In this document: positions 3,294 through 23,476 of the stretch, piece after piece
Layout: each line of letters starts with the position of its first letter
Numbering within the stretch: the first letter of the stretch is position 1
Assembly: GCF_040436365.1 (NCBI RefSeq)
Contig: NZ_AP026369.1
Span: 620,001 to 684,000 of the forward strand
DNA: 64,000 nt
Origin: Hydrogenimonas sp. SS33
GTDB lineage: Bacteria > Campylobacterota > Campylobacteria > Campylobacterales > Hydrogenimonadaceae
Reading direction: 5' to 3'
Translations under genes and position numbers: made by a program
The notes under the pieces: model-generated
Database searches by the model: none
Told to the model about the DNA's origin: nothing
The model's input: the letters and a program-made list of their open reading frames with translations, nothing else

Positions 3294-4108
3294 GCGAAAC
3301 AGAGAACCTTCAAAAACCCCAAAGCGGTGCACCGCAGAAAAAGCCCCACTGGGCGATCCGCCTCTACCACTGGTCCAACACCTGGACCGGCACCGTCGTC
3401 ATCGTCCTGCTGGTCATCTTCTTCGTGGCACAGGCATTCGTCATCCCCAGCGGCTCTATGAAGAACACGCTGCTCATCGGCGACCACCTCTTCGTCAAGA
3501 AGTTCGCCTACGGCGTGCCCGTCCCCCACATCCCGTGGCTGGAGGTGCCCGTCTGGCCCGACACCGACGGTGACGGCCACATCATCCGGGGCGAAGGGCC
3601 CAAGCGCGGCGACATCGTCATCTTCCGCTACCCCCGCAACCCCAAGATCCACTACGTCAAACGCTGCGTCGCCGTCGGTGGCGACATCCTCTTCGTCCAC
3701 GACAAGGCGCTCTACCTCCACCCCCACGAAGGCAACGACTACATCGTCGCCCACTATCCGAAAGAGAAGATCGTCGACATCGAAGGAACCTATTTCGTCA
3801 AAAACCCCTACCGGGACGAATTTCCCGGCATCCACAACGACCCCGACGTCGTCGAGGACGGCTACGAACCCATCGAGATCTTCGAATTCGGCCCCGTCAA
3901 GGTGGCGAAGGACCAGTGGTTCATGATGGGAGACAACCGGGACCACTCCAACGACAGCCGCTTCTGGGGGACGGTGCCTTACAAACTGATCGTCGGCAAA
4001 CCCTGGTTCATCTACTTCAGCTGGGACAAGAACTACACGATCCGCTGGGACCGCATCGGCCGCAACGTGGAGACACTGGAGAGAGAGAAACCCGCCTATG
4101 TCGAATGA
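3290..4108 (+). CDS. lepB: signal peptidase I
   Basis: Inner-membrane type I signal peptidase that removes signal peptides from exported proteins. In 272 residues there is one clear transmembrane segment (about 33-51), the catalytic serine in PSGSM (Ser56), the catalytic lysine region HYVKRCVAVGGD and the conserved MGDNRDHSNDSRFWG box. An acidic insertion (WPDTDGDGHI) lies between boxes. The ATG overlaps the folD stop (ATGA), and the 3' end overlaps the M50 protease gene by 11 bases, so the three are cotranslated. Confidence 0.96.
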   Translation: MSETENLQKPQSGAPQKKPHWAIRLYHWSNTWTGTVVIVLLVIFFVAQAFVIPSGSMKNTLLIGDHLFVKKFAYGVPVPHIPWLEVPVWPDTDGDGHIIRGEGPKRGDIVIFRYPRNPKIHYVKRCVAVGGDILFVHDKALYLHPHEGNDYIVAHYPKEKIVDIEGTYFVKNPYRDEFPGIHNDPDVVEDGYEPIEIFEFGPVKVAKDQWFMMGDNRDHSNDSRFWGTVPYKLIVGKPWFIYFSWDKNYTIRWDRIGRNVETLEREKPAYVE

Positions 4109-20087: not shown

Positions 20088-20256
20088 AGTGGGTAGTGGG
20101 TAGTACCAGCGAAGCTGATTCTTTCTCTACTTTCAACTCTTTGCGTCAATTTTTTGTGAGAATCATTATCAGTGCGCCAATGCCCAATGCCCAATGCCCA
20201 AAAACTGAAATCAAAGAGGGGCGAAGCCCCGTTCTAACGACCAACGACCAACAACC
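20088..20256. repeat. cluster of three different 7-bp tandem repeats
   Basis: The gap holds AGTGGGT repeated 2.4 times (20088-20104), CCAATGC repeated 3.4 times (20177-20200) and AACGACC-type units repeated three times (20236-20256). All have period seven but unrelated sequences. A GGGGC-GAA-GCCCC hairpin lies between the last two arrays. This resembles the heptamer STRR sequences known from cyanobacteria. No gene is present in this gap. Confidence 0.75.
20218..20230. repeat. GGGGC-GAA-GCCCC hairpin, shared motif with 49852
   Basis: A 5-bp GC stem directly followed by GTTCTA. The same arrangement (GGGGC, three bases, GCCCCGTTCTA) recurs at 49852-49870. Both copies stand just upstream of a plus-strand gene. 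Confidence 0.5.
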
Positions 20257-20268
20257 AATCTATTTTGG

Positions 20269-20274
20269 TATAAT
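20269..20274 (+). promoter_or_regulatory. -10 box (TATAAT) before the gltX-like gene
   Basis: TTTTGGTATAAT lies 26 bases before the ATG, and a purine-rich AAAGAGGGGA ribosome site follows. This should drive gltX-like, yggT and slt. Confidence 0.65.
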
Positions 20275-20299
20275 CCCTCTACTTTAAAGAGGGGATGCC

Positions 20300-21577
20300 A
20301 TGCTGCGTTTCACTACCGCTCCCGTGACCGATATGCCGCTCGATGCGCTGCGGATCGCCATCTTCAACTACCTTGTCGCAAAAAGGCGGGGCGAGCGTTT
20401 CGTTCTTCGCTTCGAAGACGATGGGCAGATGCCCGACCGGGAGAAGGGCGAGCGGGCCGTTTTGGAGGTCATGGCGCTTTTTGGCCTGAAACAGCACGAA
20501 ATCTACTACCAGAGCCACAATCTCACCCTACACCAGCATATGGCGGTCAAGCTTCTCGGCTCCCGTGACGCTTTCGCCTGTTTCTGCACCCCTAAAGAGC
20601 TGCAGGCCCAAAAAGAGGCGGCCATGAAAGCCGGCAGGCCCTACCGCTACAGCGGCGGGTGCGACCGACTCAGCGACGCGGAGGTGATCGACAACGAAAA
20701 GCCTTTCACGGTCCGCATCAAAAAACCTGCCACCCCCATCACCTTCGACGACCCGGTTTTGGGACGGGTCATCGTCACCCCCGAAGAGGTGGACAGTTTC
20801 GTCATCATGGAGGCCGACAAGCGTCCGACGCACCCCTTCGCCACCGCCGTCGACGACATGCTCCAGGATATCACCTTCGTTGTCCGTAGCGAAGAGGAGC
20901 TCACCGACACGCCCCGTGAGATCCATGTAAGAAACCGGCTCGGCTACGACAAGAAGGTCACCTACGCCCATCTGCCGCCCGTCCGCTTCAAAGAGCGACG
21001 CCCCCTCGGTGTGCGCGAACTCATCGAAGAGGGTTTTCTGCCCGAAGCGATCGCCAACTACCTGGTCGCCCTCGGCAACGAAACGCCCGAAAGGGTCTTC
21101 ACCCTCGACGAAGCGGCCGAATGGTTCGATGTCGCCAGCCTCTCCGACACGCCGCCAATCTTCGACCTGGAGGAGCTCCGCGCCCTCAACCGGGAACATA
21201 TGCGCCGCCATGACGCCAGGGAGCTCTCACGCGCCTTCGGTTTCGCGGACCCCGCCATCGGGGAGGCGGCCAAATGCTTCCTTGAAGAGGGAGGCACCAT
21301 TCGCGAAATCAAACCGAAGATCGACGCCATCTTCGCCCCCAAACCCTTCGGCCATGCCCACGGCGAAACGATGCGACGACTCCAAACGCTCGTCGCCGAA
21401 TCCCCCTACTTCGAGGACTTTGACGCCTTTGAAAGCCATCTGTGCCGCGAAACGGGCCTAACACGGGAGGCATTGGCCCTTCCCCTGCGCCTGTTGCTCA
21501 CCGGCGCCGAAACGGGTCCCGAGCTTCGCGACCTCTACCCCCATATCAAAACCTATCTGCAGGAGATTGTCCAATGA
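20300..21577 (+). CDS. glutamyl-tRNA synthetase paralogue lacking HIGH and KMSKS motifs
   Basis: The 425-residue protein matches Campylobacterota GltX2 along its whole length (IFNYLVAKRRGERFVLRFED, YQSHNL, TYAHLPPV, EGFLPEAIANYLVALGN, C-terminal anticodon-binding half). The first signature, normally APSPTGxxHIG, reads APVTDMPLDALR. The region that should hold KMSKR reads RFKERRPLGVRE and is about six residues shorter. RGEDH is also changed (RSEEE). The frame is intact with normal codon use, so this looks like an expressed pseudoenzyme, not a pseudogene. It lies where C. jejuni has a gltX gene; a functional GluRS must be elsewhere. Its stop overlaps yggT (ATGA). Confidence 0.88.
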   Translation: MLRFTTAPVTDMPLDALRIAIFNYLVAKRRGERFVLRFEDDGQMPDREKGERAVLEVMALFGLKQHEIYYQSHNLTLHQHMAVKLLGSRDAFACFCTPKELQAQKEAAMKAGRPYRYSGGCDRLSDAEVIDNEKPFTVRIKKPATPITFDDPVLGRVIVTPEEVDSFVIMEADKRPTHPFATAVDDMLQDITFVVRSEEELTDTPREIHVRNRLGYDKKVTYAHLPPVRFKERRPLGVRELIEEGFLPEAIANYLVALGNETPERVFTLDEAAEWFDVASLSDTPPIFDLEELRALNREHMRRHDARELSRAFGFADPAIGEAAKCFLEEGGTIREIKPKIDAIFAPKPFGHAHGETMRRLQTLVAESPYFEDFDAFESHLCRETGLTREALALPLRLLLTGAETGPELRDLYPHIKTYLQEIVQ

Positions 21578-21849
21578 TTAATGCTTTCATCTACGCCCTC
21601 GTCAATGTCATCCATACGGTCATCACCATCTACATCTGGGTCGTCATCATCGCCGCTCTGGTCAGCTGGGTGCGGCCCGACCCCTACAACCCCATCGTCC
21701 AGACCCTCTACCGGCTCACCGAACCGGTCTACGCCTGGATACGCCGCTACATTCCCACCGTGGTCGGCGGCATCGACCTGGCCCCGATCATCGTGATTCT
21801 GGGCCTCCAGTTCATCGACATCTTCATGATGCGGCTGGTCTTTGGCTAA
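21574..21849 (+). CDS. yggT: YggT family membrane protein
   Basis: A 91-residue YggT protein with two hydrophobic segments and the family signature SWVRPDPYNPIVQTLYRLTEP. YggT proteins are small inner-membrane proteins linked to osmotic tolerance and cell-envelope assembly. AGGAG precedes the ATG, which overlaps the preceding stop. Its 3' end overlaps slt by eight bases. Confidence 0.92.
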   Translation: MINAFIYALVNVIHTVITIYIWVVIIAALVSWVRPDPYNPIVQTLYRLTEPVYAWIRRYIPTVVGGIDLAPIIVILGLQFIDIFMMRLVFG

Positions 21850-23476
21850 AAAGAGGTACATAGCGGCGGGAGTGCTGCTCCTTCTTGCGGTTTCGGCAGC
21901 CGCCCGGCCCATCACCCTGGAGTGGCTCTCCTCCAAACCCCGAAGCTACGCCAAAGATTTCTACATCTGGCGCTACTTCGACCAGAACATTACGCCGGCC
22001 GAGGCGGACAGCGCCTTCTACCAGCTTCGCTCCGTCAACTGGAAGCTGATCCGCCGCTACGCCAAAAAGACGAAAAAACCGGGCTTCGCCTTCGCCGACC
22101 GCTGCCACCGCCTCACTCCCGACGAACTTCCCGCCAAAGAGGCGGCCTGCACCGAAATCGCCGTCACCCCCTACAAATACGGCAAACTCCCCCGCTACAA
22201 GCAGTTCTACCTTCTCAAACAGCTGCAGGGCTATCCCGACACGATGGCGTGGATGGAGGTGATGGCGGCGAAAGAGCCCTTCGCCCTGGTGCTGAAGCAG
22301 ACGCCGGACACCTTCTTCACCCTCTTCAACGGCTGCGGCAGGACCTGGCGGAAAGCGCACCTGAACCACCCCATCCCCACCTCCTACCTCGACACCCTCC
22401 GCCACGACCGTCGGTTCGCCCAGAGTGTCAAACTGATCGTTACCGACCCCGGCCTCGACCAGCTCCAGTACACGCTGCTGGGCATCTCCCCCGACGGCCT
22501 GGGCCATCAAACCCTCTTTTTTCTTGCCATGAACGCCCTGAGACACGGCCATCCGGCACTGGCGAAATTCTACCTGGAGGCAGCCCTGCAAAAGGCATGG
22601 TTCCGCTTCGACAAGGACAAGACCCTCTTCTGGCTCTACCAGATAGACAAGAACCCCAAAACTCTCGAAGCGCTTTCGAAGAGTTTCGACCTTAACATCT
22701 ACACCCTCTTCGCCCGGGAGTTGCTGGGCCGGCCCTGGCCGCCTGTGATAAGCCCCTCTTTCGAAAAAGGGCATTGCGGGTACGACATCTCCGACCCCTT
22801 CGCATGGCTGAAGGTGCTGGACGACATCGGGGACAAAAATACCACCTACCTCACCCGCTATGCCCGGAAATTCCGTTGCGCCGACACCCTGGGGCACTAC
22901 AGCTTCCTGATGGAGCGGGCCGCCAAATGGCGCACCCACTACTTCCCCATCCCCTACAGCGGCGCCCTCGAAGGGCTCACCACCGACCAGAAGGCGTTTC
23001 TCCTCGCCCTGGCGCGCCAGGAGAGCCGCTTCATCCCCTCCTCCATCTCCCCCTCCTACGCCCTGGGGATGATGCAGATCATGCCCTTTCTGGTCAAAGC
23101 CCTCGCCAAAGAGAGGGGGGAACCTTTCGACCTGGACGCCATGTTCGACCCCGAAACCAACATCGCCTACGCCCGGACCCACATGAAGTTTCTACAACGC
23201 CGGCTGCACCACCCCCTCTTCCTCTCCTACGCCTACAACGGGGGGATCGGTTTCACGAAACGGATGCTGGCGTCACGGGGACTCTTCAAAAAAGGGAAAT
23301 ACGAACCGTGGCTGAGTATGGAGTTGGTCTACTACGACGAGAGCCGACGTTACGGGAAGAAAGTGCTCGCCAACTACATCGTCTACAAGAAGCTGCTGGG
23401 AGAGCCGGTCACCGTCTCGTCGGTCGTTGAAAAGGCAGTTGCACCGAGCCGTAAGGGTCGACACCGAAGTCGATGA
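21842..23476 (+). CDS. slt: soluble lytic murein transglycosylase
   Basis: A 544-residue periplasmic enzyme that cleaves the MurNAc-GlcNAc bond with anhydro product formation. After a signal peptide (RYIAAGVLLLLAVSAAA) there is a long alpha-helical region, then the catalytic domain: glutamate in ARQESRFIP, GMMQIMP and AYNGGIGF. TTG start overlapping the yggT end. The 3' end runs 68 bases into the convergent lipoprotein gene. Confidence 0.94.
   Translation: MAKKRYIAAGVLLLLAVSAAARPITLEWLSSKPRSYAKDFYIWRYFDQNITPAEADSAFYQLRSVNWKLIRRYAKKTKKPGFAFADRCHRLTPDELPAKEAACTEIAVTPYKYGKLPRYKQFYLLKQLQGYPDTMAWMEVMAAKEPFALVLKQTPDTFFTLFNGCGRTWRKAHLNHPIPTSYLDTLRHDRRFAQSVKLIVTDPGLDQLQYTLLGISPDGLGHQTLFFLAMNALRHGHPALAKFYLEAALQKAWFRFDKDKTLFWLYQIDKNPKTLEALSKSFDLNIYTLFARELLGRPWPPVISPSFEKGHCGYDISDPFAWLKVLDDIGDKNTTYLTRYARKFRCADTLGHYSFLMERAAKWRTHYFPIPYSGALEGLTTDQKAFLLALARQESRFIPSSISPSYALGMMQIMPFLVKALAKERGEPFDLDAMFDPETNIAYARTHMKFLQRRLHHPLFLSYAYNGGIGFTKRMLASRGLFKKGKYEPWLSMELVYYDESRRYGKKVLANYIVYKKLLGEPVTVSSVVEKAVAPSRKGRHRSR

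Follow-up and report, generated by a model that had tools for sequence, protein, structure and literature searches.

Why should a bacterium keep a full-length glutamyl-tRNA synthetase (GluRS) gene whose catalytic motifs are gone? The question is raised by gltX2 in a 64,000-nucleotide stretch of the genome of Hydrogenimonas sp. SS33 (the window; all its features described here lie on the forward strand). The gene (20300..21577) runs from an ATG through 425 codons to its stop, with no internal stop and no frameshift. It aligns end to end with its orthologues and has a predicted GluRS fold, in agreement with a first-pass annotation that had described it as full-length and devoid of both the HIGH and the KMSKR motif. 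Alignment with the active Hydrogenimonas orthologues bears out both losses. In the HIGH region, the window protein has TTAPVTDMPLDALR where active copies have APSPTGDMHIGNLR, with PLDA instead of HIGN at residues 13-16 (20336..20347), and in the same alignment it has RFTTAPVTDMPLDALR in place of RFAPSPTGDMHIGNLR. The RGEDH position (residues 196-200; 20885..20899) reads RSEEE, a change that had also been noticed. The KMSKR loop region (20981..21007) is VRFKERRPL as against ILNxEGKKMSKRDxAS in active copies; a loop deletion had been rightly recognised there, but it spans seven alignment columns and not the roughly six residues given. Also missing are T41, R45, Y178, N179, K385, K395, and K397, positions that vary little or not at all among active relatives. 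The three lysines, which correspond to E378, T388, and E390 in the numbering of the window protein (21431..21469), would contact the anticodon by homology with GluRS. A putative zinc-binding motif of the acceptor domain is kept (C94-x-C96 ... Y117 ... C121; 20579..20662), and the same homology makes its residues candidate zinc ligands. The roles assigned to GluRS residues (Thermus numbering) are those we take them to have.

Outside the lesions, the protein is 53-60% identical to most orthologues of the genus and 49-51% identical to two others, both of which are also dead, i.e., stripped of their motifs. Its AlphaFold model is a confident GluRS fold (mean pLDDT 94.4), its best structural matches in the PDB are GluRS (query TM 0.84-0.87 for most top matches), and it has the class I Glu/Gln catalytic fold (PF00749, 149 bits). 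The profile of bacterial GltX (TIGR00464 gltX_bact) gives it 266.1 bits, below the curated cut-off of 289.95, and gives an active sister 467. Of the marks of a functional GltX, it therefore has the fold but not HIGH, KMSKR or KLSKR, or a TIGR00464 score above cut-off. It resembles the tRNA-Gln-specific GluRS2 of Campylobacterota in its full-length fold, its place in the GltX2 tree, where it groups with its own genus (f1, one side of a branch with support 100), and its gltX2-yggT-slt operon. It differs from it by the absence of HIGH, KMSKR, and the anticodon-domain lysines, and judging from these motifs it is not expected to aminoacylate. Sequencing error or contamination was rejected as an explanation, given a complete single-contig genome and the same pattern in about 110 genomes. 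Searches of genome contigs yielded 0 loci with the single protein and 16 with an alignment, mostly from Hydrogenimonas or other Campylobacterales; a plasmid search gave distant matches only, with ordinary gltX at the top.

The complete 2.25 Mb genome encodes a normal GluRS1 (motifs HIGG and KLSKR), the second gltX that the first-pass annotation had proposed to look for, and a normal GlnRS of 755 aa (HIGH and MSKRK, with a YqeY tail), so that gltX2 is not its only GluRS gene, the first of the two findings that the annotation would have counted against a pseudoenzyme. GatB is present, and glnS lies ~956 kb from gltX2. The presence of GlnRS, which the annotation had not named as a driver, accompanies motif loss throughout the genus. 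Five of the 18 genomes carry GlnRS (G000, G067, G093, G117 and, partially, G140), and all five have a broken GltX2. Both HIGH and KMSKR are intact in the remaining genomes that have a GltX2, with the exception of G105, a draft 88% complete in which GlnRS was not found, the motifs are partly broken (HIGD, KISER), and GltX2 is sister to that of the GlnRS-positive G067.

We surveyed this association in 397 genomes drawn evenly from the Campylobacterales with a completeness filter of 90%. GlnRS scored over the curated cut-off in 140 of them, one of which (G251) is probably a contaminant: its glnS-like frame (contig C171:7988-9214) contains 4 TAG and 11 TAA codons and perhaps comes from a contaminating organism, ciliate-like, that reads TAA and TAG as Gln. 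The GltX2 motifs were scored at H13/G15 and K235/S237/K238 in 119 GlnRS-positive and 52 GlnRS-negative genomes. Both motifs are intact in 51 of the 52 GlnRS-negative genomes; the 119 GlnRS-positive ones comprise 94 with neither motif, 16 with HIGH only (KMSK lost), and 9 with both. The two motif states coexist within families f1, f5, f6, f8, f10, f16, and f20. A normal GluRS2, mostly in the same operon position, is encoded by the two f10 genomes without GlnRS that were sampled and by controls representing 12 further families. The GltX2 tree, inferred with FastTree after leaving out the lesion columns and with long branches flagged, tracks the families apart from f6, which indicates mainly vertical descent of the genes; on the same grounds we rejected the transfer of dead gltX2 between families along with glnS. 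Among 16 independent pairs differing in GlnRS, the motif state was concordant in ~14 and discordant in none (sign test, p about 1e-4). Loss of GatCAB was also rejected as the driver, since GatB is kept. In a set of 80 genomes, GatB was found in 78 and AsnRS over cut-off in none. GatCAB must therefore still make Asn-tRNA, and its presence is no proof that indirect Gln-tRNA synthesis persists. One GatB match, in G366 (contig C7:160214-161071), has a single in-frame TGA.

Most dead forms lack P6, G10, H13, G15, N16, T41, R45, Y178, N179, G197, D199, KMSKR, K385, K395, and K397, which are invariant or nearly so in active forms. They keep R3 (98%), R18, D40, the putative zinc ligands C94 (96%), C96, and C121 (94%), R139, D185, D186 (98%), N260, N304 (99%), Y420, and E429. 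Their net charge is more negative. Parsimony places 55 changes to Glu/Asp and 3 to Arg at K385, K395, and K397, sites that were chosen post hoc, whereas other lysines show 88 and 138, respectively; K397 alone underwent 19 separate K-to-E changes. Five of the nine GlnRS-positive genomes that retain both catalytic motifs (G262, G314, G220, G380, and G350) are already changed at these lysines, so the grip on the tRNA can go first. The pattern suggests selection against binding of tRNA-Gln. The first-pass annotation had proposed a protein that binds tRNA; this role is disfavoured by the parallel loss or reversal of the lysines, and by the three forms (G267, G150, and G037) that have lost the C-terminal domain.

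Are the dead copies under selection? We estimated dN/dS by NG86 with bootstrap 95% intervals. Across 24 disjoint dead-dead pairs the median is 0.19 and every interval lies below 1, with dS partly saturated in wide pairs, some of which need not share a dead ancestor. Close dead pairs (dS < 0.65) have values of 0.10-0.36, and active controls 0.08-0.41. In the sister clade of the window copy, the pair G093-G140 gives 0.21 [0.14-0.34]; dS is saturated or high in the nearest comparisons of the window copy itself, so selection on it is deduced from its group. Of the signs of a pseudogene, disabling stops or frameshifts are absent from the window gene and dN/dS near 1 is not seen among the dead pairs, and a recent pseudogene was rejected from the dN/dS of the latter. 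The annotation had held that sister copies with both motifs, together with relaxed selection here, would speak against a pseudoenzyme: the sisters do keep the motifs, but the group of the window copy shows no relaxation.

The surroundings of the gene are conserved as well. A promoter-like element, TTTGGTATAATC (20264..20275, with TATAAT at 20269-20274), which would be expected to drive gltX2, stands upstream of the gene in 16 of 16 Hydrogenimonas loci, active and dead alike. Between this element and an upstream GGDEF/EAL-type gene, positions 20180-20262 contain short direct repeats (caatgcccaatgccc and acgaccaacgaccaacaacc). No Rfam element was found near the window gltX2. Downstream, the gltX2 stop and the next start overlap in ATGA (21574..21577), an arrangement that may couple their translation and that recurs in 82 of 94 dead and 40 of 52 control loci. 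The conserved partners are a membrane protein that we take, by homology, to be of the yggT family (21574..21849) and a lytic transglycosylase-like gene, presumably slt on the same basis (21842..23476). The order gltX2-yggT-slt is kept in active and dead lineages, and glnS adjoins gltX2 in 43 of 119 loci, on the upstream side in all but one, in tandem or divergently. No match to gltX2 was found in 17 of the GlnRS-positive genomes, and about 11 of these still have yggT-slt; in G183 the gene is cleanly deleted and glnS immediately precedes yggT. Hence, coupling within the operon does not force the retention of gltX2, and whatever second role the gene may have, some lineages can do without it. At one locus (L291, in G044), positions about 3432-3509 just upstream of yggT hold a possible gltX2 remnant (55% over 29 aa, E 0.04), which hints that the gene decayed in situ.

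These observations amount to the repeated conversion of a resident synthetase into a maintained pseudoenzyme in GlnRS-positive lineages, visible in the association with GlnRS, the loss of motifs, the purifying selection, and the operon. The window protein, with its catalytic residues gone and purifying selection evident at the level of its group, belongs among synthetase-derived pseudoenzymes. Of the reading in the first-pass annotation, an expressed pseudoenzyme, the part that stands is selective maintenance, strongly supported by dN/dS, reading frames open in many lineages, the promoter element, and the operon; the functions proposed there fare less well.

In Campylobacterota, the usual task of GluRS2 is to supply GatCAB with Glu-tRNA(Gln). 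We think it probable that takeover by GlnRS made this activity redundant and that GluRS2 was disarmed while a second, non-aminoacylating role was kept. GlnRS would have been acquired horizontally and would have taken over the charging of tRNA-Gln. If GluRS2 already had a second role, one requiring the folded protein and not aminoacylation, selection after the takeover may have stripped it of tRNA-Gln charging and of its grip on the tRNA, ending competition with GlnRS, while the other role was preserved. That role is most likely one of a protein partner or scaffold, the two leading candidates being GatCAB, still needed for Asn-tRNA, and an envelope process tied to yggT/slt. The motif damage in G105, where no GlnRS was found in the 88% complete draft, counts against this explanation, as does the absence of a gltX2 match from 17 GlnRS-positive genomes. 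We give about even chances to the broader proposition that GluRS2 is bifunctional across Campylobacterota, with an unrecognised role outside translation, and that GlnRS takeovers strip away the synthetase half (~14 contrasts), exposing this role and its residues. The case is a natural replicated experiment, in which a housekeeping enzyme repeatedly lost its catalytic motifs after a probable foreign takeover and was nevertheless retained. This outcome points to a second function of GluRS2, hidden until now, and names candidate residues. For many such genes, annotation as glutamate--tRNA ligase would be a misnomer.

The best of the alternatives is a specific form of the same explanation, in which the dead GluRS2 serves the Asn-tRNA transamidosome (AspRS-GatCAB), either as a structural subunit or as a factor in its assembly. 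A partnership with GatCAB, one of the first-pass suggestions, is possible, as the distribution of GatB and AsnRS leaves GatCAB necessary for Asn, and the GluRS2 of Helicobacter pylori reportedly interacts weakly with GatCAB. Against the scaffold, which we hold only tentatively, nearly all genomes without gltX2 still have GatB, and three forms do without the C-terminal domain. Next comes the idea that the gene is a translational relic, its frame kept only for ATGA coupling to yggT-slt, with purifying selection merely avoiding misfolding. The frequency of the overlap and the conservation of the operon fit it; the fact that many dead pairs have a dN/dS of 0.10-0.16, near that of active enzymes, the conservation of many polar residues, and the survival of yggT-slt after loss of gltX2, cleanly so in G183, make it improbable. 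A role on tRNA-Gln itself, as a chaperone delivering it to GlnRS or as a deacylase clearing mischarged Glu-tRNA(Gln), is more doubtful again. The retained putative zinc acceptor-stem domain and the loci where glnS adjoins gltX2 speak for it, and H. pylori GluRS2 is said to hydrolyse excess Glu-tRNA(Gln), as has been proposed. The reversal of anticodon-domain lysines to Glu/Asp, parallel and sometimes early, argues against such a role, as do the more negative net charge and the distance between glnS and gltX2 in the window genome.

It is very unlikely that the protein remains catalytically active by means of non-canonical motifs, or that it is the glutamate sensor that the first-pass annotation had also suggested: Arg3 is nearly always retained and an acid at 39 is kept in 94% of dead forms, but the pocket residues Tyr178 (kept in 45%) and Arg196 (59%) are often lost, and the KMSKR positions fall within loop deletions in about 70-79% of dead forms. 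Least likely of all is slow decay under relaxed selection, for although motif loss is repeated, some copies have only about 380 or 300 aa left, and some lineages eventually lose the gene, the dN/dS intervals all lie below 1, no stops occur inside the copies examined, and the promoter element is conserved.

An earlier study (PMC3927822, BMC Evol Biol 2014), in the excerpt available, found GluRS2 and GlnRS together in 6 of 10 epsilon genomes and suggested that the epsilon-proteobacterial GlnRS may be non-functional. Our data point the reverse way: GlnRS is full-length, its motifs are present in the window genome, and it is GluRS2 that has been dismantled, so the motifs indicate that GlnRS is probably the working enzyme. 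That excerpt, within the open-access PMC literature, does not report motif loss in GluRS2; an earlier report elsewhere is possible. GluQRS (YadB, PMC9437257) is likewise a GluRS-derived paralogue with a non-canonical role, charging queuosine, and it matches the window protein in structure; the latter differs in keeping its C-terminal domain at full length and lacking the catalytic motifs, and scores 108.9 bits against the GluQRS cut-off of 276.7. HisZ, the HisRS-like regulatory subunit of ATP phosphoribosyltransferase, is a synthetase-derived partner that does not aminoacylate; it comes from another synthetase, and here the resident gene itself appears to have been converted many times in parallel after the takeover.

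Two further observations concern the synthetase complement. G162 has two copies of gltX1 with equal scores (C1:1139008 and C1:1250025), in a genome listed with 5% contamination. Genomes of genus g10 in f10 (e.g., G133 and G155), in which GlnRS is absent, have at least three GluRS-like matches and thus an extra gltX-like gene.
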